A DNA stretch of 64,000 nucleotides from Trichobilharzia szidati. Taxonomy: Eukaryota; Platyhelminthes; Trematoda; Strigeidida; Schistosomatidae. Shown in pieces: positions 12,839 to 63,562 of the stretch. The DNA lies in the NCBI GenBank assembly GCA_944472155.2, contig OX235275.1, positions 27,332,865-27,396,864 on the forward strand. The letters are read 5' to 3'. The notes beneath the pieces were generated by a model. It did no database searches, was not told the DNA's origin, and saw only the letters and a program-made list of their open reading frames with translations. The position numbers were made by a program, and so were the translations under genes. Position 1 is the first letter of the stretch; every line of letters begins with the position of its first letter.

Positions 12839-12871
12839 ATATTCGAAAGAATAAGGCTTATGTTCCACAAG
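12839..12871 (+). CDS. Micro-exon a, copy 0 (33 bp)
   Basis: Acceptor ATTTCCACAG before 12839 and donor GTAAGCAAG after 12871. It is 33 bp, phase 1-1, encoding (D)IRKNKAYVPQ(G/D). The same exon recurs at 26426, 27421, 39776 (+) and 56122, 61850 (-), always 33 bp with intact AG/GT. Confidence 0.82.
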
Positions 12872-14934
12872 GTAAGCAAGAAGCAACCGAATTCATCGCC
12901 TACTCGCTCGAGTAGTGAAAGTGTCTCCATTACACTATTTACCGTCCCAGTATTCAAGGATACCAATTCATTGAGACAACAACACACAAGGCGGAAATAG
13001 AAAGTGTATTCGGTGGAATACAGTTGAGCTGTAAGACATGTAATACTTCGATTGGACACAGACTGATGTCATGCCTGTAATCCTTGGCGTTTGCTGCAGA
13101 CTGAATTGTATCGGTCAAGTTTGCAATGTGGCCACCAACAAGCTGGGTGGATCTCCAACACAGTGCACTCAGAATTCTTGTTATCAGATGATTGGAGGCA
13201 ATTGACAGGAGGCTTTCCTAGGCTCAGGCTTTCGTGCTTGTTGACTGACACTAGTGAGCAATGCAGTCCTGCAGGATGTCAGTCACGGTTTCGAATAGCC
13301 AACTGGCTCAGTGTCGACGCCTCTGACTGCAGGAGGCATGAGATCCTTGAGGATCGCAAATGCGCCTTGTTGACTGGTGATTGCCAACAAGCAGGAGACC
13401 TAGGTGAGTCAGGGCTTCCTTCAGATGAATCCATCAAACCATTTAATAATAAAAAATGTAATAGCAGATGGTTAATTCTGATTGGCGTTAGAATGAGGCG
13501 AACTGTGGATAGTCAAATGTTCTTTCAGACAAATAACTCGCGAACACGCTTCGAATTTAACTACACGAATGTAGTCAACAGGAATGAGAATCAGTCGACA
13601 CTAAGAAAGATTCAATTTGTGTTTGTGGAATCATAGTCTACACAGTTTCCTAAGGTGCTATCGTTCGGATAGGCAGAGACGTGTCTATCAGTCAGTTGGA
13701 ATGCTCAACACATCAGTTGACGCAGTCATGAGAGAAGTTTACTGAGTAAGGCTGGTTGAAAGTAAAGGAAATATCACAGTTTTACACGGTCTTCGCAATC
13801 AATGCTGACTGTTTCGATCAAATTTGTGAAGAATCATGCCTGTGAGTACAACCGATGCCCTCTGTCCTAGGATCGTTCTCACTTATGTGAAACATTTCAC
13901 ATCCCACAGCAATCAGATGTGATGTGCCATGATTGATTGACTGATCTCATCAGAACTCCTCACACGTATCAGCCGATATTTATACTTCAAAATATCATGC
14001 TATCATTTCATTCTACGTAACGTAACTTTCATGTCACTGCTTCCAGTGGCCTGTGCCGAACACGTGACAGCTCCTCTCCAATTGGTTTCATTCTTTTCAG
14101 ATGATCCGAATGCAAGAGAAAAACTTGCCAAAGCAGGTTTGTACACGTGGATTTTCTCCTTCTTCTTCTCCTTGTTCTGCTGCGTCAATGTTCATTATAC
14201 CCTCCTGAATCTGTATTGTCTGTTAACATAAGATGATCCACTTGTCAGTTCATCCACCAGTAGTTCATCGGTCAAACTGAGGATGACCCACTTGGACTAC
14301 TCATGTTAACTCAACACATTTCGATGTAGAGTGTGTTTTTGCCAGCGATTCTCTGACAGTCTACACCTACCCAGAATCTCCACTTGCCAAATAACCACGG
14401 GTTTCGCCTCGGATTAAGATCTAAATAAGATAGATACGGAGGCATGCGATTCGGCCAGCTTTGGCCAGCTTTCTGTGTCAATGAAATGGAGAAGCAGATT
14501 TTCTGAAGGCTCTTTTACAAGGTAAAGATTCATTTGACGCTACTTATCAAGAGAGTGATTGAATCCAATAGATGAATGGAAGTTTGTGTTGACGTAATTT
14601 GTGATCTGGATAGGTTGTTAGGAAGGAGTTGATTGTCTCGCCAGGCAGGATATTCAGCGTCGACTTTGCAGTTGAACCGTCCAGCTCACAGTGAACTCAA
14701 GAACTGCAATTTCATTCGCCAGAGCGCAGAATTGAAGCAACATTCTCATTTGATTCCTAGACAACTTTCATGTTGTGTATGAAGTAATCATTTGCAGGGA
14801 TAAGACTGGCAACACGACTGATCACGAGTCGAGAACTATTGAAAAATACGCATGGCGGACTACACAGCTGTTTCGTCAGCCTAGTTTTCGGCTCATCGCC
14901 ACTACACACATGCTCGCGTTGGAGACCAGAATAA
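12839..14934 (+). CDS. Micro-exon gene (MEG-like), copy 0, 3' half only
   Basis: Exons a (12839-12871, 33 bp), b (14101-14136, 36 bp) and a tentative last exon (14798-14934) on the plus strand. The upstream exons expected from the other copies (signal peptide, c, d, e, f) would lie left of 12448, in or beyond the 500-N gap. Known biology: schistosome MEGs encode small secreted proteins from many symmetric micro-exons; I infer the same role but cannot name the family. Both micro-exons are phase 1-1, so the peptide would run ...D-IRKNKAYVPQ-D-DPNAREKLAKA-G.... The last exon is the weakest part of the model. Transcription evidence is needed to decide whether this truncated copy is expressed. Confidence 0.55.
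13285..13420 (+). repeat. Possible degraded tRNA-derived SINE
   Basis: A TGGCTCAGTG stretch near 13310 resembles a Pol III A box (the unit-3 copy near 40290 reads TAGCTCAGTGGCAAGG, closer to consensus), followed about 30 bp later by a weak B-box-like GAGATCCTTGAGG. Schistosomes carry tRNA-related SINEs (Sm-alpha family). Copies lie at about 26872, 27870 and 40285 (+) and near 55330-55400 and 61390-61450 (-). The hallmark B box is poor, so this is tentative. Confidence 0.3.
14101..14136 (+). CDS. Micro-exon b, copy 0 (36 bp)
   Basis: Acceptor TTCTTTTCAG ends at 14100; the donor is GTTTGT (14137). It is 36 bp, phase 1-1, encoding (D)DPNAREKLAKA(G). It is repeated at 28678, 41077 (+) and 54555, 60604 (-) with the same length. 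The donor is weak (GTTTGT/GTTCGT) in every copy. Confidence 0.82.
14798..14934 (+). CDS. Candidate last exon, copy 0
   Basis: Acceptor ATTTGCAG ends at 14797. Entered in phase 1 after exon b, the frame stays open for 45 codons (starting G-IRLATRLITSRELL) to TAA 14932-14934 and includes LHSCFVSLVF. The corresponding positions in three other copies (29374, 41756 and minus 53902) keep an acceptor and an open frame although their peptides differ. No clear AATAAA follows closely. Confidence 0.33.
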
Positions 14935-15933
14935 TGTGATTACGAGACGAGCTCATAGACAATTCAGCAACTATGATCGGCACCATGGCCCATGAAATAC
15001 AGCTTCTGTCATTTCAGAATGCTTATTGAGCGCAAGCGCCAGCCAGTGTGACAGGAGTGTAACTATCCTCTTGCCTGACGCGGTGTACATCACTGTCAAC
15101 ACTGTTTGTTGCACCACATGCATATCACAATATGACGGACGTTGGAATAAATGGGACATTGGGTCAGTCGCCACTGGATTAATAACCGGAATGTGCTGGC
15201 TTGACACCTCTGCAGTGGATTTGTACCGCTGGAAAGTACAAAACGGGGCTGGTGATACATCTGTCCGCAGTCACTGTTGGTTATGCAGTGCTTCTCTAAC
15301 TGATGTGAACTCAAATTCACTCCTGCAACTTTCACAATACACTGTGAAAAAATCCATTACCAAACATTCCTATTAATTACTGATCAATTTGTCTCCTCTT
15401 ATCAACTGATGCAGATTTCCTGAACAAATTTATGAACAGTGAGCATCAATGTTTTATTACGTGATTTGTGATAGTTTACATCTTTGAATATGAATATGTG
15501 GCCTGCAGAAGAGAGGGTGTCCACACACATGTAGACACGCGATGCATATCACGACATCGCCGGTCATCTGAACAAGTGTTCGATTGACCATTCAACACGT
15601 CATCAAAGATAACATCAGTACTGATACTCAATCAGTACTTTCCATTTCAACATCACTCACTGCGATCACTCAGCACCATAACGACTGTGAATCTTCTTGT
15701 AAATACAGCATACTTCGACTCAGAATGTTTGCTTGATCATCTTTTCCTGATAGAAAAGAAACGCGGCAGCCTGAAGCAAACGTCAGCAGAATTCATCTCA
15801 CACTATCAGATTGTATTGTTTGTTGTCGAGAAGAAATGCTGTCAATAGAAGGCGTAGAAGCATTCAGTGATTCGTTTCCATTACCGGAGAGAAACACCAT
15901 GTGTAGTGCAGAGACGTGATACTCAATGAGTTG

Positions 15934-15975
15934 ACGAATGCATGAATGAATGAATGAATGATGGATGAATGATTG
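15934..15975. repeat. GAAT tetranucleotide microsatellite
   Basis: Short run of GAATGAATGAAT-type repeats, kept in the equivalent place in unit 2 (30516-30550), unit 3 (42895-42935) and the inverted arm (about 52710-52760), with length differences. Confidence 0.8.
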
Positions 15976-16179
15976 AATCGAGGAATAATGCACCTTGATA
16001 GAAATTCGAAATATATGAGGTACATCAACCAGGTAGTTAGAAAAGCTTGAGGGTGACAAGAAGCGATAGGGAAATATCTCAACTGTGGTTGTTAGGATCT
16101 GCTGTAACACTGTGGCGTGCACCAAATATTCATCAAGCTCATTCAACAGCTAGTCATGTGACAGGGGTATATATCAAAT

Positions 16180-18215: not shown

Positions 18216-18238
18216 AGTGCGATTGTACAGCCAAGGGA

Positions 18239-18293
18239 ATGAATTCGTCGAAAAGAGACTCTACACTGAACTTCATTGTTCTTATACTTCCAG
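18239..18293 (+). CDS. First exon SPx, copy 1 (signal-peptide-like)
   Basis: ATG at 18239 opens MNSSKRDSTLNFIVLILP, a short basic start followed by a hydrophobic stretch, and ends one base into the next codon at the strong donor GTAAGTCGAG (18294). Phase 1 matches all downstream exons. The frame and length (55 bp) are kept at 32820-32874. The hydrophobic part is short for a signal peptide, so cleavage could depend on exon c. Confidence 0.65.
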
Positions 18294-21200
18294 GTAAGTC
18301 GAGAAGTTAGTCACCTAAGTCTTCCTTATTAAAATGAATCATTTTGTCTGCTTCTTCCCACTATCAGAATTCGGAGACGACTTGTCAGGCCTTGCAAGTG
18401 AGTGTGAATCATAATTTCTCTCATGATAGCTACCTTCAACCATGTGAATCAGTATATTAACATCAATACTAAATCATTTCCTCATATTTGGCCAATAATT
18501 TCGTGGAATTAGGAAAACAAGGGTCGCCTGCATCTTCCTCCTTTACTGCTTGTCAAAACCACTCCCTTATTTTCCATGGTTTTGTGAAATTTCATAAGAT
18601 ACAAACAGCGCATATGCTTTCGCACAGTCGAAAACCACACTCACAATCATATTGTTGACTGGATAATGCCACAGACTGTGTGTCCACAAATACAGAAATA
18701 CGTTGGACCGATAGGAAGACGGTAGAAGATCAGGACTTCGTGGACGACTAACTTTTAGTGTTCTATGGACTCAGGGACTTCCAATTGCAAGCCAACAATT
18801 TGTAAGAAGAAGCAGGAAATACAGCACTTCCAGTGGAGATCCAGGTGGTGAAGGTAACTGAACAACAGGGAGTTCTCTTCCGCTGCTTATTCAGGGCAGT
18901 GTCGCTTCAACTCTAGGCAGCACAAATGAATATGTAAAGGGCAGGACCAAAAAAGCTAGACAGATTTTCAGATTTCTTTCTGAAATCGGTGTGGAAAGCC
19001 GCTGCACTCAGGATAAGGAAAACGATTCAGATTTCCAACACAGATATCCAATCAGCGCGTAATTCTGGTTAAGAGACTTAGCATGTGTACCAGAGGAAGC
19101 GTGGATAACCGAATTCAGAGATTTCTTGGCTGCTGCCTTTCACTGCACACTGATAACATCATGGTTAGAAAGGGTGAGAAACATGAAAATCTGCCTACAC
19201 AGTTTGATTGGATCGATGTGTGCTTTCTTGTGACAAATGACAATGGACGGGCAGTTCGATTCACCAGTCAGGAGCGTTTTCACAGTCGAAGAAGTGGACA
19301 ACCAGAAATGAATATTTTGAGTCGTCTACAGATTCAGAAAATTTATTCAGCTCTACAGGCTCCATTGCGATCAACTCTCCACTGTCCATGGAAAGTGTAG
19401 TCTATATTCACATGCATTCTCCTCACAGGTTTGTGTTATCAAACGACATCTCATAAATCACTGCAAGACTATTCAAACCTTCACCAGTTGACGTCGTACA
19501 TAAACTTAGCTCTTTGTCAGCCGAAAGACTCAACAGGATAAGGAGATAAAATCAACGTCACCCACACAATAAATTTCAACAACCGCGAGAAACACTAAAT
19601 TGACCAAAGTGGACGTCCCTTTCGTCTTCATATTCATGAACATAAACTGGTCGCTGCATACAGACGAACACAGACATCAATTTGACTGAGACGAAGTTCA
19701 AATATTAGACAGACGAAACACCAAGAATGCTGCAGAATTACTAGGAGCCTGCTTTTCCAGCGAATCGTCAATGAAATAACACAAACAATACGGAGGAAAT
19801 ATCACGCAAAAAGGATGAAATTTCAGGTGAAGCAAACAATCAGTACAAATACAAGTAGCCTGGAGGGCGGTAAAACACACAAATCAACCAATCACATTGA
19901 AGGTGACCAGGAGAGGTGACTGAAAATCTCATGGAGGAATCTGAAGCTCAATTGTAATTGAAGTACGCGTTGAAGATGTTGCTTCGTGTGGCAGTGAAAG
20001 CTTCACAAATAAATCATCCAACTCAGATAACAAAACCACATCAAAATCATCAACCTGAGCTAGACATCGTCTACATCATATTTCTACACCTATAAATAAA
20101 ATCTGTAACGTAAAGGAATCTCACTATTTACTATTCGTGATTAATTTGTGTTCATGTTTGAATATTCGTGTATTGCTAACCCGATTTCGCACACTACAGG
20201 ACATCCGAAAACAACAGAACCGCCAGTGGTGACTTGTAAGTTGAACTGCAAGTTAAACAACACCCTATTCCGACTAACAAATTAACTTGCTTCTCATGAG
20301 ACACGCTCCTTGTAATTTTTGGCAGTGACCTGCCATCAACTTGAGCCTTCATTCATCTACGTACTTTCAGACTCCACTATAGTTGCAAGAAATCAATAGT
20401 GGATACGTGGGTTTCTGATGAATCTACAACAAATGATCTGTTCATATATAGCGACATAAGGAGTTGTAGGATTCAATCTACATTCTGAGGTTTGAAATGT
20501 CACAATCAATACTGACAACGTGGATTGTGAGCCTTGCTTTCGTCTGTGAGTAGGTAATCTTGCTACTTGAAACACAGCCGAAGAATGTGAGATCATCATA
20601 ATGATAATGACACCTGTCTCCCGTACAAAAGCTTTGCACGATATGTAGAGTACACTGCATATTTTATTGTACTACAGGTTTTCTCCATTCATTGGTCTTC
20701 CATATGAAGTATAGACCAATCGCATCTATAAACATTTGAAATAATTTGAGTCGAAGAGAATGTGTTCGATCGTGTTGGATGCAAGTTCAGATGGGACGAT
20801 TATTCGAGCTGGCCAACAAGGGATGGAGCAGGATGGATATGTCAAATGCACAAGCATACTCAAATTGCGTCACTGAGAGATCGTCATACTCGCCAGACAA
20901 GACAAAGCATGAAGTCGCGTCACATTTGCATGTACTTGTAGAATCACGCACGATCTTGTGATTGTGGCAGAGAATGCTTGCAATTTGATATCCTCCTATT
21001 TTTGATCTACCTGCATTTTCTCGTAAATATTTCAGCACCTGGCTCTTGGTTATTTCGTTCTCAGCATTTTCTTTCGACTAATCCTTTCTTGCGATTCAAT
21101 TTTCAATAAGAATCGGAGGCATCTGTTGACACACTTGTGTTGTCTGTTGGTAATGCTTTAGGTTACCGGCCGAATTTTGACTCTTTTCGGAGCACCGACT

Positions 21201-24200
21201 CCCCACTTGTAGTGAAAATCCGAATCCTGTTCATTATACTGGCTGAGTGCGGAGGATTTTCGTGCTGGCTTCAGGTTGTTGAAGGCCTATCTTGCATTTC
21301 TGATTCTGGCTGCTTTTGTCGGACTCACCCGTCATGCCTGTGGTTGGAACGACACTCGCTGTCAGATGTCACTCGTTGACGGTGTTCGGTGCTGGTTGTT
21401 GTTGCTTTTGTGGGTTAGTTATCTTCGTCATCTTTGTTTTCTCTGTTTTCACTTGAAATCCTGTCTTCGTTGCAAGTCGTCAAGTTTGTGAGACATTGAA
21501 TATAAATCATCAGCGAAATTCAGATCTTCCAGAGACTTCTTGTCGCCTCAGCGTATTTCTGTCTCCCCCTACGCCAATCACAGTCTGACGCATATTCAAG
21601 TCCAACATTGATAAAAATATCATCGTTGAGCATAAACAGTTTTGTTTTGTCTTGCTCCTGTAGTCGCTTCGAACGTCTCGCTGTGTTTCCAGTTGTGGAT
21701 CACCTGACAAGTGCCACTGTCATATGGTCATCTGTTGAATGGGGTCGATAAAGAATCAGCCACTTGACGGTTGTGAGGAGATGACGCAGAGTTCAAGTTA
21801 CTTTCCGTGAACTTCGATTTTGAAGTCAATGAAATTAACGTTCGGATTCGACTGCCGAATAGAGTAACTCTTTGCTGAACGCCTTTTCTTTTCTATTCTA
21901 CGAATTGTTTGATGACAACGCGTGCAGTTGCTTCGTGAGGAATTCCATCCGGTCACGCTGCCTTCACGACTGAACTTTGGTAGCTTGATCGCATTCAAGG
22001 TTTCCACTTTCGTTGAAGGATTGATATCTATTTGTCGGCAGTTATGGGCGTGATATTGGTGGTACCTCTGGGCGAGTTGCAGGTGATGTTTGACTCAGGA
22101 GTCCTCTACAGTGATCAGACCATTGTTTTATTTGCTTCATCTGCTTGATAATTAAGTGCTTCTTAGCATCTTTTATCGGTTTCATTACCTGTATTGATCT
22201 CTTTCTGGATAGAGACCTGGATATCTGATACAGTGTCCTGAGGTCTGTTCAACCTGCGGTCTGCCTGTTTTGCTTCAGTTGATAGTGTGTTAGCGAATTG
22301 TCGTTTTCTTCCCTAGCACTCTGACAGGCGAAGTCCACGTTGCTCTGTGTATATCCTTGTGCTTGTACACACCGCATCCGATCATCAAACCTCTGAAAGC
22401 GCAGAAGTCTGCGAATAATTCTCCGTTCTCATTCATTTCTCCGAACTATTGTCTCCCGACCCATGATTGACTTCTCTTCCTGTATTATCTCTTTCTGTCT
22501 AGACTGACGTAAATACCACCCATAGGGATTTCGACGTATCCATTCAGGATGTTGTCCGTGACTATTTGTAGTTGTCTATACAAATCCTCCTTCATCTCTT
22601 GTTCTGAAATGTGTGTAGCCTTGTGTGAAGCATTGGATAGATGTAAACTTCCTTTCTTCATTCCGAGTGGAACCTTGCTGTCACCATCCGACCGGAGGAG
22701 ACTGTCCCTCACTGGCATACTGCTCTGTCACCTATTGGGAAAATTATGAAAGTCATTCTCTGCCTCAGTGTGTTTGTGGTTGTCGTCTGGTCACCGAGAA
22801 GACAAACGATTACTGACACTCCAGTGGATAGTTTTGAGAGATCTCATTCATTCTATCTGATGAAGCAGATTCCAAGCACTTCTTTGCGGTTTCTTCGCCT
22901 TTCTTTGACTACCTGAACAGTTTTCGCAAACTCGTACATCGGGCGTACATTTCACGTCCTCATTATAATTCCTGCTGTCATCAGGAGAAGAGAGATAGTC
23001 TGATTGACTTCCTGAAGGCTTCTAGCAGCCAGACTCATTTCTCTTTACTGAATCCAGCGAATACAGTGCATTTTTCAAATTTTTGTGTATTGTCACACAT
23101 TGTTGGTGCAATGAGTATTGCCCAGAAGTTTGATAGCTTTGCGATTTAAAGTTGATAAAGTCACTCCAAAATTACACTCTCCAGACAGGCTAGGTACAGG
23201 CTAGGAAACTAGCACAACATTAATACAGGTGAGGCTAGAAATCCTAGTCTGTCACTGCACACAAACACCCACATGTGTTTCTCTTGCCACTGACGATACT
23301 TTCTTACTCGCTTACAGATCGGTGGATGAAAATAAACGACAACACCATGAGTAAGACAATATACTATTTTAAATATGTAAAATATTGTGCAATTTTGTCA
23401 GGGGATGGAGGAGTAGTAGCCAAATTAAACTGCCATAACAATTTCGCATCTATATTTGACTAACGAAAAACACGAACGAGAAATTCATATCGAGGATTCA
23501 GTCAGAGGAGCAACTGAAATTCTAATCACAGGTGATTCTTCAAACATTGTGATGCTGGACACCATCTGGTGTTCATATGCCAGAGACATCAGTATTATTC
23601 ATAATGATTTCGGAATGCCGCATTCGCAATACTTGAACACTCACGACGCTTCCAATAGACGAAGGAATAAGAAACACTGTATCAGGACACTTTCAATGAA
23701 AAGAAGGTGGAGAAAACTTTGACGTCACTTGGCGAAATGTGATGGTTGTTCACGCACAGCTACGTGGAGCAATGGCGGTCGGATCGTCCATCTCACAGGC
23801 ATTAGGTGAATAGGTGACATATTCATGGATTTTAGGCAGGAAAATGCACCTGAACCATTCATATCATCAATGAAATCTTGATAGAGGTGTGCAGATGACG
23901 CTTGAGTAATAATGAGAATGACTGATACTGACAAATTCGTCCCACACACAAACAACAGTCATGTAGACTCAGTGTGGAGATTCACTATGGAAACAGAGGA
24001 TGAAATTGAAGGAAATCTTGTGCTAGCTTTACTGCGAAGTACAAAGTGTGACAGATGACAGCATAAAATTGCGACGTTTTACCTTCAAGAAACCTGCACA
24101 TTCCGGGAGATTCCGTGATTATCTATCACTCAGTTGATCCACTCAGAGTAAATCGAGGATTAATACAAGTTCTTGCATACAGAATGCTCAGACTTTCAAC

Positions 24201-27200
24201 AACAGTAGATAACCGAAGAGAAGAAATAACTGTCTTTTTGAAAGTGCTACTCGGAAGCAACAACTCAAAATAATTTATCCGAGATACCATGAAGATGCAT
24301 AGAAGGAGGTTGAGAACAGGTAATGACAAGAAGGAAGATGGCATAACCACAGCGACAATACCATACGAAATGGGTTTATCAGAGTCGCTGTTGGACTAAT
24401 CCTCTGAATGTTGGGATTCATACCACGTTTAACCTAATGAATCCAACTAACCAGAAATAAAATAAGTCAGCTAAACGGTCCAAAATCAATGATGGAATAA
24501 ATTAGCAGTGTAATTTACAAAATGATATCGTGTGCTGAATGTCGAACTAAATATGCCGGTTAGACGTCTAGATCATCGTTGAAAATAAGAGCGAATGGAC
24601 ATATACGACTGACTGAGTGTTATCCAACAAGGAAGCAAGTGTACAATAATTCAGAAGAAAATTCGTCCACAGCTGCACATGCAGAGAACGAAATCCACAG
24701 CAATGATTGTGACGAGATTTGCATTCTGGAATCTAATATGAACAAATGAAAAGAGAGACTATTAACGACGGAGTCTGTATTACTGAGAGACGTCACTCTG
24801 GATACATGTGACAAGGCTGACTTAACCTCACGACTGTCAGCGACCTGGAATATAATTCACGATACAGAAAACTGAGTGGAACGAATCTGAACTAAGCACA
24901 CACAAATGACTACAAATCACAAATGTGTGAATTGAAGCAAATATCAAAACAACAACTCATCATCATTTTGTGTAAAATATCGATATACAACTACAATTAA
25001 TTTGGTCTACTCTATATTGCGCAGACGTTCAACTGACATGAAATAATATCACTTCACCAGCCGACACCATGTGCAGGAAATCGGCACGCATCGAAGTCAA
25101 GAAGGTGCTTTCAAGTGCCAAACAGTTGTTTTCTCAATATCTTCTGAAGAATATTGTGCGAAATTTGTTTCAATGTATTTCATAGTGTACGTTCTGCGTA
25201 ACTACACACAACAATTCTTTTGACAGAATACTTATTCCTTTTGAGAAATTCATCAACAGGTAAGCACGTGTGCATTGAAATAATTTCAGTTACCTGACTT
25301 CATAATCCCTGGAGGTGGAATTAGCGGAACCAGCACCAATGTGTTCACTGGCTTTTCCCCAACGTTCCCATGGAGTTACTGTGTATCACGAATGCATTCA
25401 ATCAATGAACATGAAGATATTATTTATGATTCGCCTATCAGTTAGTCAGTTGATTCGATATTAGTCAGAATGTTTCGTGACTGCCTAACTACAGGAACAC
25501 AGAGTTGCATCCACTTGAGAAGGTATTTGTCGGTGAAACTGTGCACTGAACTTCAGTCAATCATTGCGACAGAGATGCAGACGCATTCGCGAATAGTCCC
25601 TATCCAGACATTAGCGGAAATAAAAACAAGCACGTAGTTCAGGGAACAGTTTCTTTCGGAGACGAATTGACTCACTTAGCTCTACAGTGGAATTATTATC
25701 ACAGAACTAGATAACGCATGTGCCGAAATATTTGTGCATGCATCAGTTCAAATGTCACTGCAAATCACCTTCCGGCGGTTTCTCAACGTGACTAAAATCT
25801 TCATGACAAAAACGCAATGATACTTCCACTTCCTTTACAGATGAATGGAATGAACTGAATACAATCGTATTTGAATGTGAGTGATTTGAAGTCTGGTTTA
25901 GAAATTTTCATCTAGTTATCTTCCTGATGTTCTATGATGGCATTTCTGTGTTTCGATGTTGCGCTTGTGTGGGTCATTGTATTTATTTCAGTGAAGAATT
26001 CGCCACGAACCTGATCAGTGGATGAGTCACTGAATGCAAATATCAAGAGGCAAATGACGGATTTCTCCTGATTTGAGACCCGCCTCAGACGGCTGCAACA
26101 ATAGCAACAATATCATCAATTGCACCATGGATCGAACACGCCTAGTCCACGATGCTGCCACTAAGGTGGAATTGAGCAACCTCTTGAATTCGAAAATTCT
26201 TACTCACGGATCCGAGACTGTCAGCAATCAATGCCATAGATGAGCATGCAGATTTCTGATGCCGCTGGCGTTCGCTGATTCAGTCTGAAAAATTGGTGTT
26301 GTTGTTTTGAGACAGCACTTCAGAGATAATAAGCAGTGACATTGTCATCTCATGGTGAAATACAATTCGCTCACGAAAAGCCTTCATCTAAGTCAATGTG
26401 CCATTTGTTTATTTCATTTCCACAGATATTCGAAAGAATAAGGCTTATGTTCCACAAGGTAAGCAAGAAGCAACCGAATTCATCGCCTACTCGCTCGAGT
26501 AGTGAAAGTGTCTCCATTACACTATTTACCGTCCCAGTATTCAAGGATACCAATTCATTGAGACAACAACACACAAGGCGGAAATAGAAAGTGTATTCGG
26601 TGGAATACAGTTGAGCTGTAAGACATGTAATACTTCGATTGGACACAGACTGATGTCATGCCTGTAATCCTTGGCGTTTGCTGCAGACTGAATTGTATCG
26701 GTCAAGTTTGCAATGTGGCCACCAACAAGCTGGGTGGATCTCCAACACAGTGCACTCAGAATTCTTGTTATCAGATGATTGGAGGCAATTGACAGGAGGC
26801 TTTCCTAGGCTCAGGCTTTCGTGCTTGTTGACTGACACTAGTGAGCAATGCAGTCCTGCAGGATGTCAGTCACGGTTTCGAATAGCCAACTGGCTCAGTG
26901 TCGACGCCTCTGACTGCAGGAGGCATGAGATCCTTGAGGATCGCAAATGCGCCTTGTTGACTGGTGATTGCCAACAAGCAGGAGACCTAGGTGAGTCAGG
27001 GCTTCCTGATCAGTGGATGAGTCACTGAATGCAAATATCAAGAGGCAAATGACGGATTTCTCCTGATTTGAGACCCGCCTCAGACGGCTGCAACAATAGC
27101 AACAATATCATCAATTGCACCATGGATCGAACACGCCTAGTCCACGATGCTGCCACTAAGGTGGAATTGAGCAACCTCTTGAATTCGAAAATTCTTACTC

Positions 27201-32790: not shown

Positions 32791-32819
32791 TATGTTAGTG
32801 CGATTGTACAGCCAAGGGA

Positions 32820-44971: not shown

Positions 44972-45001
44972 TATACGAAGAAAATTCGTCAGCACTCAAA
45001 G
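44972..45001 (+). CDS. Orphan micro-exon c, unit 3 (30 bp)
   Basis: Acceptor TTTGAACTATTAG, donor GTGAGCATG; 30 bp, phase 1-1, encoding YEENSSALK. It aligns with exon c of units 1-2 by position and length, but the peptide is almost entirely different. No SPx is recognisable upstream and no d or later exon follows, so it is likely a gene fragment. Confidence 0.6.
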
Positions 45002-47674: not shown

Positions 47675-47699
47675 GGTTCGTAGAGCAACAAGGGAATTT

Positions 47700-50190: not shown

Positions 50191-50199
50191 CTCACCTGC

Positions 50200-51245: not shown

Positions 51246-51745
51246 NNNNNNNNNNNNNNNNNNNNNNNNNNNNNNNNNNNNNNNNNNNNNNNNNNNNNNN
51301 NNNNNNNNNNNNNNNNNNNNNNNNNNNNNNNNNNNNNNNNNNNNNNNNNNNNNNNNNNNNNNNNNNNNNNNNNNNNNNNNNNNNNNNNNNNNNNNNNNNN
51401 NNNNNNNNNNNNNNNNNNNNNNNNNNNNNNNNNNNNNNNNNNNNNNNNNNNNNNNNNNNNNNNNNNNNNNNNNNNNNNNNNNNNNNNNNNNNNNNNNNNN
51501 NNNNNNNNNNNNNNNNNNNNNNNNNNNNNNNNNNNNNNNNNNNNNNNNNNNNNNNNNNNNNNNNNNNNNNNNNNNNNNNNNNNNNNNNNNNNNNNNNNNN
51601 NNNNNNNNNNNNNNNNNNNNNNNNNNNNNNNNNNNNNNNNNNNNNNNNNNNNNNNNNNNNNNNNNNNNNNNNNNNNNNNNNNNNNNNNNNNNNNNNNNNN
51701 NNNNNNNNNNNNNNNNNNNNNNNNNNNNNNNNNNNNNNNNNNNNN
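51246..51745. other. Assembly gap (500 N)
   Basis: Exactly 500 unknown bases between the gypsy gag and the inverted arm. The gap size cannot contain the rest of a typical gypsy element (about 4 kb), so the true distance or junction is unknown. Confidence 0.99.
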
Positions 51746-52600: not shown

Positions 52601-53804
52601 TGCTAACAGGCACAGGTGAGGTATTTCCCTATCACTTCATGTCGCCTTCAAGTCTTTCTAACTACCTGGTTGATGTCCCTTACAGTTTCGAATGTCTATC
52701 AAGGTGCATTAATCACCTCTTCACTCATTCGTTCCTTCACTCATTCATTTATCCACTTATTCATTATCACATCTCCACATTGCACATGGAATTTTACCTT
52801 GATGATGAAGGCAAATCCACGATAGATCCTACGCTCTCCAGTGACGGCATTTCATCTCCGCATTAGTCAATACTATACTGTAGTGTCAAATGAGATCTGA
52901 TGAAGTTTGTTTCAGGATGTCACTTTCATTTCTCCCAACTGAAACTGATCAACACACATTCTGCATACAAGTCTTCTGTAGTTGTGAGTAGTCTCAGGGA
53001 CATTATGGCGTCCATTGATTGCACTGGCTGACTTTCGATGGAAAAGTATCGACCAGGTATCGGTAGTGAAATTATATTTAGACGACATGTTGAGTAGAGG
53101 ATCGAACGCTTTTGCAGATGACCAGTAATGGCATGATATGCATCATATATACACATCTATGTGGATATTCTTTAACGACGAATCATTGATTTATATTCAC
53201 AGCATTTAAATTCATGTAATGATAAATTTTCGCTCACTCTTCAAGATTTTATCCAAGTATTCTACATTAGTTGAAAAAGGGAGGCAAATAAATCAGCAAT
53301 TTATGAAAATGTTTAGTATCTAATTTTTCACAGGGTAATATGGAAGCTACAGGAGTGAAAACGATCTGACATCAGTTGCAGAATCACTGGAAAAGCAACA
53401 GGGAGTACGGACAGCTATTTCGCCAACCCAGTTTTGTACTATTCAGCAGTGCGCACGCATGACAGGAGTGTGAATTCAGGACATTCCGGTCACGACGCCA
53501 GCTGGTAGGCCATTCAACCACTGACACCTGACCCATTAATCGATGAATTCCAACTTCTGCCTATCCGTGATACGTAACGAGCGCAACCACCAGTGCGACC
53601 AGCCATTTACACTCATTACGACACGAGGACAGTTACTTGACTGTGACACTGGCTGGCGCTTGCTCCCCTTATGCATCACGAATATGCAGAAGCTGAGATA
53701 CATGGACCATTAAGTTGGGTCCAAGTCACCAATTTGTCTATCAGCTCACCTCGTAACAAGATAATCTTGCTTTCAAACGGTCGTGTGTGTGTGTGTACTA
53801 CCGA

Positions 53805-53902: not shown

Positions 53903-56900
53903 CTGCAGGTGAATACTTGATGCACAACATGAAAGTTATCTGGGAAGCAATTGAGAGTGTTGCTTGAATCCTCCGCTCAGGTGAATGATATTGCAGTTTT
54001 GTGTTCACTGTGAGCTGGATGGTTCAGCTGCAAAGTGAATGCTGAATATCCGGCCTGGAGAGACAATTAACGCCTTCCTAATGACCTATCCAGCGCGGGA
54101 ATGACGCCAACACTGACCTCCTTACATCTGGTGGATTCAATCACTCTCTTGATGTAGAGGATTCAAATGAATCTTTACATTTCCAACGAATTTTCAGAAA
54201 ATCTGCTTCTCTGTTCCATCGACACAGAAGGCTGCCCAAATCCAGATGGCTTGCTCACTTCTCTAGGTTTTCGAATCATAAACGCATGCATGACCCAGGG
54301 TTATTAGGTCAGTGAAGATTCTAGGTAGGTGTGGACAGTCAGTGAATCACTGGAGTGAACAAACTCCATATCGAAATTAGTTGAGTTAACACTAGTAGTC
54401 CGAGTAGGTTATTCGCAGTGTGGGCGGTGAACTACTGGTGAATTAATTGACAAGCATATTCTGTTACGCTGGCAGACGATCAAAGTTCAGAGAGGAATAA
54501 TAAGCACTGACGCAGCAAGAGAAGAGGACGAGAAAGAAACTCTTGTAAGCGAACCTGCTTTAAGAAGCTTTTCTCTTGCATTCGGATCATCTGAAAAGAA
54601 TGAAAGCAATTAGTGAGAAGTTGTCACGTGTTTCTATGAGGTCATTGGAAGCAATGACATGAAACTTACATAGAATGAAATGATAGGATGATATTTTGAA
54701 AGATAAATATTGACGAGTACATTTGAGTTTTGGTTAGATCAGTCAATGAATAATTACACATCACGTGTGATTGCTGTCGGATGTGAAATGTTTCACATTA
54801 CTGAGAGCGAACCTATCACCGATGACATCTGTTGTACTCACAGACACGATTCTTCACAGATTTCATCGAAACAGTTAGTAGGATTTGGGAAAGCCACCTA
54901 AAACTGCTATATCATCTTTAATTTCAGTCATATTGCCTCAGTAATCTCCTTTCATGATTACGTCAACAGAAGTGTCGAGCATTTCAAGTAACTCATTGAC
55001 ACGTCTTTGCATATCCGAAAGACAACACCTTTCGAAACTGAATTGACCATGATCCCGTGAACAGAAATTGAATCTTGCTTAGTGTCGACTGATTCTCATT
55101 CCTGTTAACTACATTCATGTGATTAAATTCGAAGCGTGTTCGTGAGGTATCTGTCCCAAAGAACATTTGGCTATCCATATTTTCCTTCGTTCAAATCCTA
55201 ATCAGAATTAACTGTCTCCAATTACCTGTCTTATTTGTTAAATGGTTGCAGTGAATCGACTGAAGGCAGCCCTGACTCACAAGAGTTTCCTGCTTGTTGG
55301 TATTTGCTAGTCAGCAAGGCATATCTGCAGTCCTAAAGGATCTCATATCCCCTGCAGTCAGTCACCTTGCCACTGAGCTAGCTGGATATTCGCGCTCGTG
55401 AATGACCGACCTGCTGTAGGACTGTATTCCTGATTAGTGCCAGCCAACATGCACGAAATTGTGAGCCAGGAGTGGCCTCCTGTCAATTGCCTCCAAATAT
55501 CTGATAACACGAATTCTGAGTAAACCGTGCTGGAGATCCACCGAGCTTGTTGGTGGCCACATTGCAAACTTGACTGATAGAATTCAGTCAGCAGCAAGCG
55601 CCAGGCATAACAGGCATGACACCAGTCTGTGTCCAATCGAAGTATTACATGTCTCATAGCTCAACTGCATTCCACACATTTCATTGATATAAGAATAAAA
55701 CTTGGGCACTGTGGTAGAGTGTAATTCCATTATGGGTAAATTTTTATTTTGATAGAGTCTCACAGTGTTATACAGTAATATTTACTGATGACGTTTCGAG
55801 CACAAACTATTGCTCATAATCATATCAACTTGATATGATTATGAGCAATAGTTTGTGCTCGAAACGTCATCAGTAAATATTACTGTATAACACTGTGAGA
55901 CTCTATCAAAATAAAAATTTACCCATAATGGAATTCCACACAATTCATCTTTCATTTTCGCCTTGTGCGTCGTTGTACTGAAAACTTTGTATCCTCGAAA
56001 ACTGAGACGGTGTGTAGTACTCATCATCATACATGTAAAATTTCCTTTATTTAGATGACGCAATGTGGACACTATTGGTACTCGAGCAAGTGCCCGGAGA
56101 AGTCTGTGGTTTCTTGCTTACCTTCTACAACATAAGTTTTATTCATTCGAATATCTGTGCAAATGAATTAGACAAACACACATAGATTTAGATAAATGCG
56201 TTGATAAGATGAATGATACGAAAGAGATATCTGAAACACGTGGATGTCCTTGGACACTTCATCAAGTTTGTGAAGGAACTGCATGTCAACATGTGACGTC
56301 AGTGTCAATGCGTATTATTTGTCAAATGCTGTTAACAAACAACACCGATTTTACAGGTGAAATCAGTGAATGCCAGCGTCATCAAAGCCTGCATACTCAC
56401 TCAAATCATCGATTGCAGACAGTCCTATATCCTCGAGGACGAAAGTCTGCATTCAAGTGGTTGTTGGATTCGTGTCTAAGTGCCTGTATGGTGGATGAGG
56501 CGTGTTCTATCCTTGGTGTGGTTTGTGTTGCTACTGTGATCGCAGTGGACTGAGAGAGGTCCCAAGTCAGGAGGACACAGCCATCTGGCGCCTGATGATT
56601 CCATCCACAGATTCGCGTTGGTGGAGAATTCTTCAATGAAATACATACAGTCACCCTCAAAAGCTCAACATCCAAGGTAAGAGATGCCAACACAGAAACT
56701 GAAGTAGATAACTCGATAAAATTCTCAAATCAAACTTAGATTTGCTCACATTCAACAACGATTTTCATTAGTCCAATGCGTTCAGCTGTAAAAAGAAAGA
56801 GACGAATTTCGAGTTAGACTGCAAGTATAAAGTATTCGCGTCGAGCAAGCGGCTTATCGTGCTCAGCGGTGACAGCTGAACTGATATTTGCACGAAGAAT

Positions 56901-59325
56901 TGTGTGTATGAGAAGTGTTATACTTGGTGTTTGAGAACCCATATCCAGCATGGCTGCAGATATGTTGTACTGGATCTGCGAGTGGTGTGATTATCGGACA
57001 TCTCATCAACACTGCCCATTCCATATGAGCAAATGCCTCCTGCTTCAAAGTAATCTACAGAACAAAAATAACCTGCATAAGGCCATACCGTTTCGTCTCC
57101 TTAGTACTGCTGAAGTCTAAGACTTTCACACACGAGGAAACCATTCAACTATTCCTACTTTCATGGTAACAAAGGCGTTGATTTCTGCTGACTTGTGATT
57201 TGTGTACTTGTCTTTCTGATCCCCTGAAACTCTTGCATTTCTCTACAACTTTTGCACAATTCAATATTCTAATTCGTTTCCATGTGCATCCAGATCACAA
57301 GTCACTCATTATATTATTCACCTCATTTAGTAGCTGTAATACACTTGTCGAACTTCTGTGATGCATCCACCACCCTCCAATAAATCGTGAACCCACCAGT
57401 CACAACTTCATTACTCATCAAATGTTTGAAGTATTGTGATGTCGTGAACAATAACCCTGACTAATGTTTAATCTTGTTTCTCTCACAAACACAATGTACA
57501 CGCACAAACATACTCACACACACACACGCGTACAACAATGATTAGATATAATGCGATTGTAGAGCTGAGTGAATGAATTCGCCACCGAAAAGAGACCCTT
57601 CGATGAACTACGTGGATTTTGTGTTCACTAGTGTCTGGATGAGTATTACTCATGAATGCATCTGCGCGTCAGTCTCAAGGGTCGACTGGAGGTCGACGCA
57701 TACTTTCACCGAATAATACCTAAACGATTGGATGACTTCCACGTTGCTCTGTGTTCCTGTGGTCAGACAGTCACAAACACATTCCGACTACTATTGAATC
57801 AACTGTCGAAGACAGGAGGGAGTATGATGAAATACTCCTCTTCACTGTCTAATTTATAGGCAAATTGAGAATAATGCCTTGGTGGTGATTGATTTAACAA
57901 AGCATTCGTCATAATCAGTGACCCAATCGGAAGGTTGGTAAAAACAAATGAACACATTGATGCTGGTCTCGCTAATTCCACTTCCAGTGATTATGGAGTC
58001 GAGTGACTGAAATCATTGGATATCACATAGGCTTACCTCTAGATAAATCCCTCAGAAAATGTGAGTATTCTGTGAAGAGAATTGTTGTGTTTAGTTACTC
58101 AGGACATACAAAATGAAATACATTTGAATAAAATTCGCATAATGTTCGTCAGAATATATTGAGTTAACAACTGTTCGGCACTTGAAAGCACCTTCTTGAC
58201 TTCGACGCATGCTGGTTTCCTGCACATGGTGTCAGCTGGTGAAGTGATATTATTATTTCGTGTCAGTAAACCGTCAGCGCATTGTGGAGTAGATCAAATT
58301 AATTGTAGCTTTATTTCGATAGCTACACATTATGATGAGTTGTTGGTTTGACATATTTTCAGATTTCGAGAGCACTTACTGCTGTCGATCACAGCCAGCT
58401 ATTGTTGGAATTGTTCTCTTTCATATCACGAAATTGCTCTTTGTTTAGTTGAGTTTTGTTTCATTTATTTTTGTGTGTGGTGAAAAATGTATTCTCGGTG
58501 GCCGATAGAAGTGCTGCCGAGTCACTCATGTCACATGTATCCAGCGTGACTAGCCTGAATATGGATTCCGTTGTTATCAGTCTCTTCTTCCATTTGTTCA
58601 TATTAGAAGGCAGAATGAGAGTACTGTCGCAATCAATGTGCAGTCTAGCTAGCACGGGTAGTTGTTCAATTTCTTCCCCTTTTTCTCTAGTGAATTTCCA
58701 CACTGAGTCTACATGACTACTGTTTATGTGTGAGTCGATCCTATCTGTATCATTCTTTCTTCCTATTATTCATCTGTTATCTGCATATCTCCGTTGATGG
58801 TTTGTATGGTTCAGGTGGATTTTCCTCGATAAAATCCACGAATATATCGGCTTTTATTGATGAGATCGGCGATCCGATGAACAATGCTTCATTTTGTTCC
58901 TCGTGAACACCTAACGGATTTCGCCGATCAAAGTCAAAGATTCCTCTATCCCCTTTTAATTGAAAGTGTCCTGATACAGTGTTTCTGATTCATTCGTCTA
59001 TTGGAAGCGTCGTGGGTGTCCAGGTATTCTGAGTCAGCCATTCCGAAATCATCATGAATGACACTGACGCCTCTGGCCAATGAATACCAGATGGGGAACA
59101 ACTTCACTATGTATGCGGATTAAGCTGTGATTGGAATTCTGCTTACTCAGCCGACTAAATCCTCGATAAGAATTTCTCATACATGATCTTCGCCAATCAA
59201 AGTAGCGGAAAAAGTGTTGTATTAGTTTCATTAGGCTACTCCTCCTTCCCCTATCATGGGTGCACAATATTTAAAATACTGTATACGCTTACTTTCGATA
59301 TCGTCACCGACAGTCCTCCACGAAT
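53805..59325 (-). CDS. Micro-exon gene (MEG-like), inverted copy R1
   Basis: Minus-strand exons in transcription order: e 59293-59325, f 58037-58069, a 56122-56154, b 54555-54590 and a tentative last exon 53805-53902. All micro-exons are phase 1-1 with AG/GT intact. Its natural 5' part is lost: SPx, c and d fall in the deletion at about 60298 and SPy survives only as a 3' remnant (60191-60218) without its ATG. It could be expressed only if transcription comes from upstream gene copy R0, to which it can be spliced in frame. A palindromic insertion (55685-55932) lies in the intron between a and b, about 190 bp from exon a. Confidence 0.55.
54555..54590 (-). CDS. Micro-exon b, copy R1 (36 bp)
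   Basis: Minus strand: acceptor CATTCTTTTCAG, donor GTTCGC (weak); 36 bp, phase 1-1, encoding (D)DPNAREKLLKA(G). Confidence 0.78.
55669..55684. repeat. Target-site duplication of palindromic insertion, left
   Basis: ATTCCACACATTTCAT here and ATTCCACACAATTCAT at 55933-55948 (one mismatch) flank the palindromic insertion. Unit 3 has only one copy of this site, near 39990-40005. Confidence 0.6.
55685..55932. mobile_element. Palindromic insertion, probably PLE-end derived
   Basis: Absent from the matching place in unit 3. 55723-55935 is a 213-bp palindrome, apparently perfect, with arms of 106 bp around a single base at 55829; 38 bp outside it on the left are not palindromic. The arms contain CTGATGACGTTTCGAGC / GCTCGAAACGTCATCAG, a motif type often seen near the ends of Penelope-like elements, hence the tentative assignment. 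Confidence 0.65.
55933..55948. repeat. Target-site duplication of palindromic insertion, right
   Basis: Second copy (one mismatch) of the 16-bp site at 55669-55684. Confidence 0.6.
56122..56154 (-). CDS. Micro-exon a, copy R1 (33 bp)
   Basis: Minus strand: acceptor TTTGCACAG, donor GTAAGCAAG; 33 bp, phase 1-1, encoding (D)IRMNKTYVVE. Confidence 0.8.
58037..58069 (-). CDS. Micro-exon f, copy R1 (33 bp)
   Basis: Minus strand: acceptor CTCTTCACAG, donor GTAAGCC; 33 bp, phase 1-1, encoding (E/K)YSHFLRDLSR. Confidence 0.8.
58450..58990 (-). pseudogene. Penelope-like element relic, inverted arm
   Basis: Minus strand: IGSPISSIKADIFVDFIEEN at about 58885-58826 is the PLE RT signature, and 58640-58460 carries the C-terminal ESIFRLVTLDTCD part. 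It is shorter than the copies at 23740 and 36300 by an internal deletion of about 0.6 kb. Confidence 0.65.
59293..59325 (-). CDS. Micro-exon e, copy R1 (33 bp)
   Basis: Minus strand: acceptor CTTACTTGTTTACAG, donor GTAAGCG; 33 bp, phase 1-1, encoding (D/Y)SWRTVGDDIE. Confidence 0.8.
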
Positions 59326-60190: not shown

Positions 60191-60218
60191 AGACGAAAGC
60201 AAGGCTCACAATCCACGT
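60191..60218 (-). pseudogene. Remnant of first exon SPy
   Basis: Only the 3' part of the SPy exon (encoding W-IVSLAFV) and its donor GTGAGTAGG are left; the start codon and first residues are replaced by unrelated sequence. Confidence 0.6.
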
Positions 60219-60289
60219 GAAAACTCATGATGATGGCAGGTCGCTATCAACAATACAGCCAGTGTGACAGACAAGAAAAAAGCTTATTT

Positions 60290-60603: not shown

Positions 60604-60639
60604 CTGATTTGAGAATCTGTGCACCGTAATTCCTTCCAT
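60604..60639 (-). CDS. Micro-exon b, copy R0 (36 bp), highly diverged
   Basis: Minus strand: acceptor TTCATTATTTTCAG, donor GTTTGTG; 36 bp, phase 1-1, encoding (D)GRNYGAQILKS(G) where all other copies have DPNAREKL(A/L)KA. Confidence 0.72.
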
Positions 60640-63562
60640 CTGAAAATAATGAATCCAATCAGTGAGGATTTCTCACTTGTTTGTCAGAGGTCATTGGAAG
60701 CAGTGACATGAAGTCAACATAGAATAAAGTTATAGGATGATATTCTGAAATATAAACATCAGCTGATACATGTGAATTGTGATCAGATCAATAAATGGAT
60801 TGTTATACAACACGTCTTATTGCAGTGGAATGTGAAATGTCTTACATACGTGAGAACGAACCTATGACTGATGATATGCTTTGTACTCTTCGACACGATT
60901 CCCCACAGATTTGATCGAAACAGTTAGCATTAATTGGGAAAACCACGTAAAATTGCGATATCTCCTTCGCTTTCAACTATCTTGCTCCAGTAATCCTCAT
61001 TCATCATTACGTCAGTCGAAGTTTTGAGCATTCGAACTACTTCATAGACACGTCTTTGTACATCCGAATGACAACACCTTACGAAACTGTATAGACTATG
61101 ATTCCATAAACACAAATTGAATCTTTCTTAGTGTCGACTGTTAACTACATGCGTGTGGTTGAACTGGAAGCGTGTTCCTGAGTAATTTGTCTCAAAGAAC
61201 ATTTGACTATTCGTAGTTTCCTTCATTCAAATCCCAATGAGAATTAACCCTCTGCCATTACATGTCTTAATTATTAAATGGTTGGATGGATTCCTCTGAA
61301 GAAGTCCCCTGAATCACCTAGGTCTCCTGCTTGTTGACAATCACCAGTCAACAAGGCGTATCTGCGATCATCAAAGATCTCATATCCTCTGCAGTCAGTG
61401 ACGTCAACACTGAGCCAGCGGGCTATTCAAACTCGTGACTAAACTCCCGCAGGACTGCATTGCTGACTAATGTCAGCCAACAAGCACGAAACCCTCAGCC
61501 AAGAAGGGCCTCATGTCAATTGCCTACAACCATCTTATTACAAGAATTCTGAGTACACTGTGCTGGAGATCCACCCAGCATGTTGGTTGCCACATTGCAA
61601 ACTTGACTGATAGAATTCAGTCTGTGGCCAGCGCCAGGGATAACAGGCATGACACCAGTCTGTGTCCAATCGAAGCATTACATATCTCTTGGTTCAGTTG
61701 TAGTCCACCGAATACACTTTCTATTTTCACCTTGTGTGTTATTGTCTCGATGAATAGGTATCTTTGAATACTGGGATGGTAGGTAGTGTAATGAAGACAC
61801 TTTCAGTACTCGAGTGAGTATATAATGAATTCCGTTGCTTCTTGCTTACCTTTTGTAATGTACAACTTATTATTTTGGATATCTGTGGAAATGAAATAAA
61901 CAAATTGCACATTAACTTAGATGAAGGCATTGAATAATTCAATCGAATCAAAGACATATCTTGAAAATCTTCACAACTGCGTTTTTTGAACAAATTGTAT
62001 GTCACCATGAGATGACAATGTCAGTGATTATTATTTCTGAAGTTCTGTTTACAGAAACTACCAAATTTCCAGACTGAATCAAAGAATGCCAGCGTCATCA
62101 GAAATCTTCATGCTTATCTATGGCACTTATTGCTGACAGTCCCTGATCCATGAGGAAGGATTTTCGAATCCAAGAGGTTTCTGAAGCATCGTGGACGAGG
62201 CGTGTTCGATCCTTGGTACAATTGATGATATTGTTGCTGTTGTTGCAGCCATCTGAGGCGGGTCTCAAATCAGGAGAAATCCGCCATTCGACGCTTGATG
62301 TTTTCATTCAGTGACTCATCCACTGATCAGGTTCGTGGCGAATTCTTCACTGAAATAAATACAATTACACACACAAGCGCAGCATCAAAAGTCATAAATG
62401 TCATCACAGAATATCAGGAAGATAACTAGATGAAAATTTCTAAAACCACACTTCAAATCACTCACATTCAAATGCAATTCTCCCTAGGAGACGGCGTGCA
62501 TCTATAAATGAAAACATGAATTTCGTGGAAAATATGAAGCCAAATAGCTACGTTTCGGAGTATAATTTACAGGCCTTTACACATACAAAAGAAATGATAT
62601 ATGCACAAATAAATCAGCGGAAGAGTGATATTATCCTGAAGGCTTCTGGGGGTCAGTGGCCGACTGGAGAACACTACACTTAGCCTTCGTCGCTTGATGC
62701 GTTTCCTTCTGAAATGGGTTGAGAACCACTTTCCTGCATGTCTGCAGAAATGTGCTAGTTGCTCTGCAAGAAAGGCGGTTTTCGAAATCCTGTTCACACT
62801 GTCTATTCCATCTGAACAAACGCCTTCTGATTCACGTTAATCTACAGAGTCAACAATAACCTGCCTAAGGCGATACCGTTTCGTCTTCTCTGTACTGCTG
62901 AAGCCTAAGTCATTCACATGGAAAATCCAGGGTCATGAATAAAAGAGGAAATTACCCAGCCACTTCTCATATCCTGGTAACCAAAGTGTGGATTTCTACT
63001 GCCCTAAGATTTGTATGTTTTTTTTCCTGATTCTTTTTAACTTTTGTATTTCCCCCGAACTGATGCATGCACAAATATTTCGGCACATGCGTTATCTAAT
63101 TCTGTGATAATAATTCCACTGTAGAGCTAAGTGAGCAAATTCGTCTCCGAAAGGAAACTGTTACCTGAACTACCTGCTTGCTTTTATTTCCGCTAATGTC
63201 TGGATAGGGAATATTCGCGAATGCGTCTTCATCTCTGTAGCATAGATCGACTGAAGTTCAGTGCACAGTTTCACCGACAAATACCTTCTCAAGTGGATGC
63301 AACTCTATGTTCCTGTAGTTAGGCAGTCACGAAACATTCTGACTAATATCGAATCAACTGACTAACTGATGGGCGAATCATGAATAATATCTTGGTGTTC
63401 ATTGATGGAATGCGTCCCATGGAAACATTGGGAAAAGCAAGTGAACACAATGGTGCTGGTCTCCCAAATTCCACTTCCAGGGATTATGAAGTCAGGTAAG
63501 TGAAATTATTTCAATGCACACGTGCTTACCTGTTGATGAATTCCTCAGAAGAAATAAGTATT
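60604..63562 (-). CDS. Micro-exon gene (MEG-like), inverted copy R0, internal part
   Basis: Minus-strand exons in transcription order: f 63530-63562, a 61850-61882, b 60604-60639, all phase 1-1. Upstream exons would lie beyond 64000; the last exon is deleted at about 60298. Exons a and b encode peptides very different from all other copies, yet no stop, frameshift or splice-site loss has occurred. Without its own last exon it could only produce a complete frame by splicing into copy R1 (exon e at 59325), which phase permits. Confidence 0.58.
61850..61882 (-). CDS. Micro-exon a, copy R0 (33 bp), diverged
   Basis: Minus strand: acceptor ATTTCCACAG, donor GTAAGCAAG; 33 bp, phase 1-1, encoding (D)IQNNKLYITK. 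Confidence 0.78.
63530..63562 (-). CDS. Micro-exon f, copy R0 (33 bp)
   Basis: Minus strand: acceptor TTCTTTTGACAG, donor GTAAGCACG; 33 bp, phase 1-1, encoding YLFLLRNSST, the same peptide as copy 1 (25227). Confidence 0.8.

Follow-up and report, generated by a model that had tools for sequence, protein, structure and literature searches.

Here, we describe an array of very small predicted exons in the genome of Trichobilharzia szidati and assign it to the micro-exon genes (MEGs), in a form built from repeated cassettes. The window, by which we mean the whole analysed stretch of 64,000 bases (40% GC), contains two 500-N assembly gaps and, between positions 12839 and 63562, 31 predicted micro-exons: 27 of 30, 33, or 36 bp and four of 24 bp. 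These are of eight kinds, t (36 bp), x (33 bp), y (33 bp), z (36 bp), w (33 bp), v (36 bp), r (24 bp), and u (30 bp). All 31 are bounded by AG and GT and open in phase 1-1. The cassettes are spaced at 12-15 kb on the plus strand and at 5.5-6 kb on the minus strand (Table 1); cassettes 2 and 3 hold all eight kinds, and cassettes 1, 4, and 5 are each cut by a gap or by the window end. An earlier note on this DNA had reported AG/GT-bounded, phase 1-1 micro-exons recurring in a fixed order over these positions, which is confirmed here. Its count of at least 29 micro-exons of 30, 33, or 36 bp needs correction, as the recurrence stands but 27 have those sizes and the four 24-bp exons had been missed; an orphan exon c that it mentioned could not be identified.

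The exons were sought with a generic splice-site score, whose cut-offs were fixed after looser listings had been viewed and were unchanged thereafter. At one cut-off, the sense strand yielded 18 open, phase-1 candidates of 30, 33, or 36 bp among 25 candidates of 12-90 bp. The same cut-off yielded none among 12 candidates on the antisense strand, none among 4 candidates on both strands of the left flank, and a mean of 0.18 (maximum 2) in 100 dinucleotide shuffles. The single unit 20497-35048 has 5 such candidates, a number attained by 0 of 300 shuffles. The splice cut-off is passed by 18 of the 31 exons, and the 13 below it (five v, four r, two t, one x, and one u) were identified by conservation between copies or by a homologous protein. 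Kind r was revealed in cassettes 1 and 2 by the protein P0008 (described below) and in cassettes 3 and 4 by copy alignment. Kinds r, u, and t are missing from cassette 5, none having been found in the stretch from its v to x of cassette 4. A further candidate of 36 bp (at 16816), which is open in copies A, B, and D, was dropped for its stop and GC donor in copy C; by reading of the open reading frames (ORFs), it is situated in a retroelement-like stretch.

Might such exons be chance open stretches that recur only through duplication of the whole unit? The units are indeed duplicated, with 94% identity between 12448-20725 and 27030-35298, and the check that the earlier note had proposed for this case was run. 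Exon borders and frame were preserved at matched positions in 26 of 28 checks over 11 copy pairs, which overlap and are not independent, with r and t left out (t was not alignable to copy C) and with an exon set partly picked for conservation, which favours the set. Decoys were retained in 24 of 200 cases on the sense strand and 42 of 226 on the antisense strand. Both misses (A to C and B to C) concern a 36-bp reading of u with its donor 6 bp downstream; without this longer reading, preservation is 26 of 26. In addition, the pair g2-g3 has no indels in 201 compared exon nt vs 47 in 2601 flanking nt. The shuffle, antisense, and decoy-retention controls, along with homologous proteins that follow the array exon for exon, leave a chance origin with next to no probability, the match to P0008 speaking strongly against it.

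The array also carries several hallmarks of MEGs, as given in the available portions of the papers cited here. One published rule calls for a run of at least 4 consecutive exons shorter than 70 nt and divisible by three, in a gene of at least 7 exons of which micro-exons make up at least half (PMC7653826). The predicted exons form a row of 21 on the plus strand and of 10 on the minus strand, all of 24-36 nt, and so exceed both the run length and the 7-exon minimum. Symmetric exons that keep the frame on skipping are a further hallmark (PMC4350168; PMC5825161), and 31 of 31 exons are in phase 1-1; MEGs have also been described as having symmetric exons of 6-36 bp over about 80% of the coding region (PMC5825161). 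The array resembles the MEGs of Schistosoma and other flatworms in its short symmetric exons divisible by three, its tandem clustering, and the retroelements nearby (PMC5825161; PMC4350168; PMC7653826; PMC10526429). Those genes also show exon skipping and secreted products, both of which we infer for the array. The MEGs of S. mansoni have 10-20 short exons, most of 15 bp (PMC10526429), and from these the array differs in its exons of 24-36 bp, its 21 exons in one direction, and its repeated eight-exon cassettes. The MEG architecture suggested by the earlier note is thus supported by the symmetric runs of 21 and 10 and by Trichobilharzia proteins made of the same exon kinds. The array is real and of the MEG kind; it represents a known gene class in a variant with repeated cassettes, for which the evidence here is DNA and database gene models.

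A protein search with short spliced peptides gave nothing at E<=1 among 566 candidates, with an accepted length range that excluded the relatives of 213-405 amino acids (aa) found later. A 280-residue query, drawing on 960 candidates and limited to relatives 154-490 aa long with short exact words in common, found five relatives at E<=10. All are from Trichobilharzia, in agreement with the restriction of MEGs to flatworms. These are P0008 of T. szidati (239 aa, E=1.9e-57) and P0009, P0010, P0011, and P0012 of T. regenti (405, 339, 213, and 302 aa; E from 3.4e-32 to 2.3e-13), the latter four listed in UniProt as A0AA85IYH5, A0AA85IS33, A0AA85ISH6, and A0AA85ISU3. The only names they carry are "unnamed" or "uncharacterised" protein.

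P0008 can be read as a chain of such exons between two end parts. It consists of a 47-residue N-terminal part followed by t-x-y-z-w-v-r-u, t-x-w-v-r-u, t-x, t, and CKLANN, the micro-exon segments covering residues 48-233 of 239 (186 residues). Of its 17 window-type exon peptides, 11 are exact and 6 differ by one residue; its first cassette and exons x to u of cassette 2 are identical at 66 of 68 residues. A junction codon draws its first base from the end of one window exon and its other two from the start of the following exon. All 16 junction residues of P0008 are among those predicted in this way; the window copies permit a single residue at 9 junctions and two or four at the other 7. Two of the 16 junctions are skips, from x to w (N) and from x to t (R). 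The T. regenti proteins share the exon-peptide kinds and their order, and P0008 the junction residues as well, but these proteins differ from the window in their ends: no convincing counterpart in the window was found for the N-termini of P0008, P0009, and P0011 (e.g. MKIYCFLCLFLIVVIHA) or for the C-termini of P0009 and P0011, where the best E was 0.085, vs 3e-5 for a micro-exon control. MEG proteins typically start with a signal peptide or a membrane anchor, and P0008 and P0011 have hydrophobic stretches at their beginning.

No named MEG appeared in the protein searches, and four of the six motifs in the available portion of a study of S. mansoni MEGs (PMC10526429), namely FLxxFX6Wp(K/H/R), FxxLFL..., CGGLppG, and CX5/7/9HX3/5/7C, with residue classes that we assigned to the symbols ourselves, were each absent from all five homologues. 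Hence the earlier note's statement that the peptides match no named MEG family holds as far as tested. Pfam gave no family for two window proteins, matches that were all below the cut-offs for P0008-P0011, and none for P0012; among solved structures there was no significant match for one window protein or for P0009. Amphipathic helices were considered and rejected, as the maximal 18-residue moments are ordinary (equalled by 486, 98, and 274 of 1000 shuffles).

In light of these proteins, how many genes does the array represent? The earlier note had counted five gene copies. We propose, with a probability of about 0.68, that the array consists of repeated eight-exon cassettes (t-x-y-z-w-v-r-u) of one very long MEG, or of two if the scaffold join discussed below is right, making a repeat protein that is probably secreted and that exon skipping would vary. 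Exon t holds the key. In the window, 1.8 kb separate it from the preceding u and 1.1-3.1 kb from the x that follows, and P0008 passes the supposed gene boundaries through u-t-x twice and joins t to x three times. Since P0008 splices t to the next x, the "gene copies" are most likely cassettes of one long MEG, and a solely terminal role for t was not adopted. One or two long genes are also the better reading in view of P0009, which holds two cassettes in one protein, and of the unmatched protein termini. P0010 and P0012 correspond, as database models, to P0009 minus internal blocks, as would be expected of isoforms. Finally, every adjacent junction is open in the 21 consecutive symmetric micro-exons of the plus chain (12839-45001) and in the 10 of the minus chain, which, with all exons included, read through 225 and 110 codons without a stop. 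We infer that the window cassettes are spliced into one transcript for a secreted product, and that different proteins would arise through skipping.

The proposed mechanism would follow from the phase of the exons. Each predicted exon begins after the first base of a codon and contributes whole codons, so that almost any of them can be joined to a later one in frame. Ordered exon pairs are without a junction stop in 198 of 210 cases in the plus chain and 42 of 45 in the minus chain, as are 1,448,959 of the 2,097,151 exon subsets of the plus chain. Unequal duplication would then add cassettes and exons with the frame unbroken.

Several observations weigh against a single long gene. The proteins P0008-P0012 come from database gene models, in which exons of adjoining genes could have been chained together by a predictor. 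Cassettes 1, 4, and 5 are incomplete in the window, and the 13 exons below the splice-score cut-off include both t. P0008 ends in t followed by CKLANN, so t could be modelled as a last exon. In addition, two cassettes have before x, in a conserved block, a candidate first exon encoding MSQSILTTWIVSLAFV (the MSQ exons, at 20497 and 35049), which could mean separate gene starts.

The last two points bear on five separate tandem MEGs, each running from its own MSQ signal-peptide exon to a terminal form of t, which we regard as unlikely. The two MSQ exons have a phase-1 donor, and the block around them is identical at 145 of 153 positions, vs about 75% on either side (99/133 before and 322/430 after). 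Read beyond its donor, t has a short open tail in both window copies, that at 20200..20235 giving CKL... as at the C-terminus of P0008, and an AATAAA/ATTAAA signal, at 35351, follows the second t. Against separate genes, cassettes are joined within the single proteins P0008 and P0009, there is no AATAAA or ATTAAA on the plus strand between the first t (20235) and the next x (23318), and the MSQ exon of cassette 4 lacks its start. The MSQSILTTWIVSLAFV peptide, moreover, occurs in none of the five homologues. The two signal-peptide-like first exons of the earlier note are present in the DNA, but the homologous proteins have different N-termini; the MSQ exons could be alternative starts.

A tentative variant, which overlaps with the long-gene reading, is a mixed design in which every cassette boundary supplies two alternatives, a last exon formed by t extended beyond its donor and a first exon of the MSQ type, and the array is read both as a long gene and as short single-cassette genes. 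Such a "mega-MEG" would be a single gene, considerably longer than 30 kb, of repeated eight-micro-exon cassettes that could be read whole, as a giant combinatorial gene, or piecemeal, as many short genes; this is possible but doubtful. It would accommodate t being internal three times and terminal once in P0008, as well as the conservation of the MSQ block; the MSQ peptide missing from all five homologues counts against it.

Returning to one or two long genes, the number depends on the orientation of the cassettes. All plus-strand exons lie to the left of the gap at 51246-51745 and all minus-strand exons to its right, with 51746-58639 matching 37279-43896 in reverse at 92-95% identity. As the strand switch coincides with the gap, the inverted arrangement depends on one scaffold join, and the inverted duplication of the earlier note is not shown. 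With the right-hand piece flipped, all cassettes would point in the same direction.

How might the array have grown? A tandem duplication of 998 bp (26010-27007 and 27005-28002, 95% identity) gave cassette 2 its two copies of w. As for whole cassettes, the first and second v of T. regenti P0011 match v of cassette 5 at 8 and 3 of 11 residues, and the other window copies of v match at 2-3 of 11. The v of cassette 5 is thus closer to the first v of P0011 than to the other window copies, and cassette types seem to span species. This sequence comparison suggests that the types predate the divergence of T. szidati and T. regenti, and it makes recent selection a weak reading. Tests of exon against intron divergence were mixed: exons differ more than introns for g2-g5 (43/138 vs 387/1790, Fisher p=0.014) and for v of g1-g5 (16/36 vs 117/455, p=0.019), show no excess for w of g1-g5 (p=0.17) or x of g2-g3 (p=0.14), and are more conserved for v of g1-g3 (1/36 vs 117/458, p=0.0008). 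The ratio of nonsynonymous to synonymous changes (dN/dS) takes values between 0.15 and 2.29 in 7 pairs, for which the counts are small. Strong positive selection was therefore not adopted and no conclusion on selection is drawn.

It is improbable that the array is decayed, i.e. that it consists of duplicated fragments of a formerly active gene whose expression was lost. The incomplete cassettes 1, 4, and 5 would fit such decay, though their truncation coincides in each case with a gap or with the window end, as would the lost MSQ start of cassette 4 and the retroelement ORFs beside the array. Against this, 31 of 31 exons have kept their open frame, AG/GT borders, and length, with flanking introns of divergent copies differing by 9-43% and carrying 2 to 10 indels per exon pair.

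The nearest parallels to a MEG of repeated cassettes are MEG-26.2 and MEG-26.4 of S. mansoni, in which internal duplication repeats the same exon-length pattern within one gene (available portion of PMC5825161). The likeness is by description only, MEG-26 repeating a motif and the array several kilobase-long cassettes. Aphid bicycle and megacycle genes, fast-evolving putative effectors with many micro-exons starting, like those of the array, at codon position 2 (over 100 in megacycle genes, according to the available portion of PMC9168663), belong to an insect lineage and are an analogy only. In Trichobilharzia, 10 MEG transcripts of T. szidati and 4 of T. regenti have been listed by BLASTp to six GenBank reference sequences (PMC6362228, available portion). 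Literature searches on Trichobilharzia MEGs, micro-exon cassettes, and internal duplication listed no paper with the present family in its title or abstract opening, which does not prove its absence.

If our proposal is true, it would show that a MEG can grow by tandem copying of whole cassettes and of single exons (w) with the frame unbroken. The eight exon kinds and their known junction residues provide an exon key for annotating a family now called "uncharacterised protein" in Trichobilharzia, a genus linked to cercarial dermatitis (PMC4749378, available portion). The array also offers an example outside Schistosoma for asking whether skipping yields protein variety.

Table 1. Predicted micro-exons, candidate first exons, and assembly gaps, by window position.
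Feature	Position	Strand	Details
500-N assembly gap	11948..12447		directly before cassette 1
w, cassette 1	12839..12871	+	33 bp, IRKNKAYVPQ
v, cassette 1	14101..14136	+	36 bp, DPNAREKLAKA
r, cassette 1	15415..15438	+	24 bp, FLNKFMN; via P0008
u, cassette 1	18368..18397	+	30 bp, FGDDLSGLA
t, first of cassette 2 by P0008 order	20200..20235	+	36 bp, HPKTTEPPVVT; below splice cut-off
candidate alternative first exon (MSQ)	20497..20545	+	MSQSILTTWIVSLAFV; phase-1 donor
x, cassette 2	23318..23350	+	33 bp, RWMKINDNTM
y, cassette 2	25227..25259	+	33 bp, YLFLLRNSST
z, cassette 2	25841..25876	+	36 bp, EWNELNTIVFE
w, cassette 2, first tandem copy	26426..26458	+	33 bp
w, cassette 2, second tandem copy	27421..27453	+	33 bp, IRKNKAYVPK
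v, cassette 2	28678..28713	+	
r, cassette 2	29990..30013	+	via P0008
u, cassette 2	32949..32978	+	
t, first of cassette 3	34779..34814	+	below splice cut-off
candidate alternative first exon (MSQ), second copy	35049..35097	+	MSQSILTTWIVSLAFV; same 49 nt
x, cassette 3	35961..35993	+	SWMTVGNDIE
y, cassette 3	37849..37881	+	YSHFLRNLSR
z, cassette 3	39145..39180	+	ERIELMKIVVG
w, cassette 3	39776..39808	+	IRMNKTYVVK
v, cassette 3	41077..41112	+	DPNAREKLAKA
r, cassette 3	42395..42418	+	YLDKILK; via copy alignment
u, cassette 3	44972..45001	+	YEENSSALK; retroelement ORFs further right
500-N assembly gap	51246..51745		all plus-strand exons on one side, all minus-strand exons on the other
r, cassette 4	53238..53261	-	YLDKILK; via copy alignment
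v, cassette 4	54555..54590	-	DPNAREKLLKA
w, cassette 4	56122..56154	-	IRMNKTYVVE
z, cassette 4	56750..56785	-	ERIGLMKIVVE
y, cassette 4	58037..58069	-	YSHFLRDLSR
x, cassette 4	59293..59325	-	SWRTVGDDIE
MSQ-type exon remnant before cassette 4	60191..60223	-	without start codon, without upstream block
v, cassette 5	60604..60639	-	GRNYGAQILKS
w, cassette 5	61850..61882	-	IQNNKLYITK
z, cassette 5	62466..62501	-	ARRLLGRIAFE
y, cassette 5	63530..63562	-	YLFLLRNSST; no x up to window end

The neighbourhood of the array includes several retroelement ORFs. A gag-type ORF (DUF7041) at 50583-51245 runs into the second gap from the left, and its stretch 50583-51236 shares 92% identity with a T. szidati protein and 68% with one from Heterobilharzia. 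RVT_1 (reverse-transcriptase) ORFs lie at 294-1076 (+), left of the array, and at 48947-49597 (-), to the right of exon u of cassette 3 and left of the second gap. ARAGORN found no tRNA in the window, and no family reached the threshold in an Rfam scan of it.

The introns hold repeats of their own. Between w and v of cassette 4 there is a near-perfect palindrome of 221 bp (55719-55939, 109 of 110 compared positions), with short similar flanks and not present at the matching place of cassette 3; by its look it is a foldback or miniature inverted-repeat transposable element (MITE)-like insertion. In the w-v intron, the stretch 13010-13270 is 84-91% identical between copies A and C, vs about 72-79% in its surroundings, and related copies lie near 26.6k, 27.6k, and 40.0k. 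The r-u intron has a 256-bp inverted repeat (17543-17798 and 17971-18226, about 82% identity, 172-bp spacer) with copies also at 32.1-32.8k. Just upstream of exon u, at 18239-18293 and 32820-32874, there is a short ATG-started open stretch with a phase-1 donor, possibly there by chance, which reads MNSSKRDSTLNFIVLILP in the first copy.

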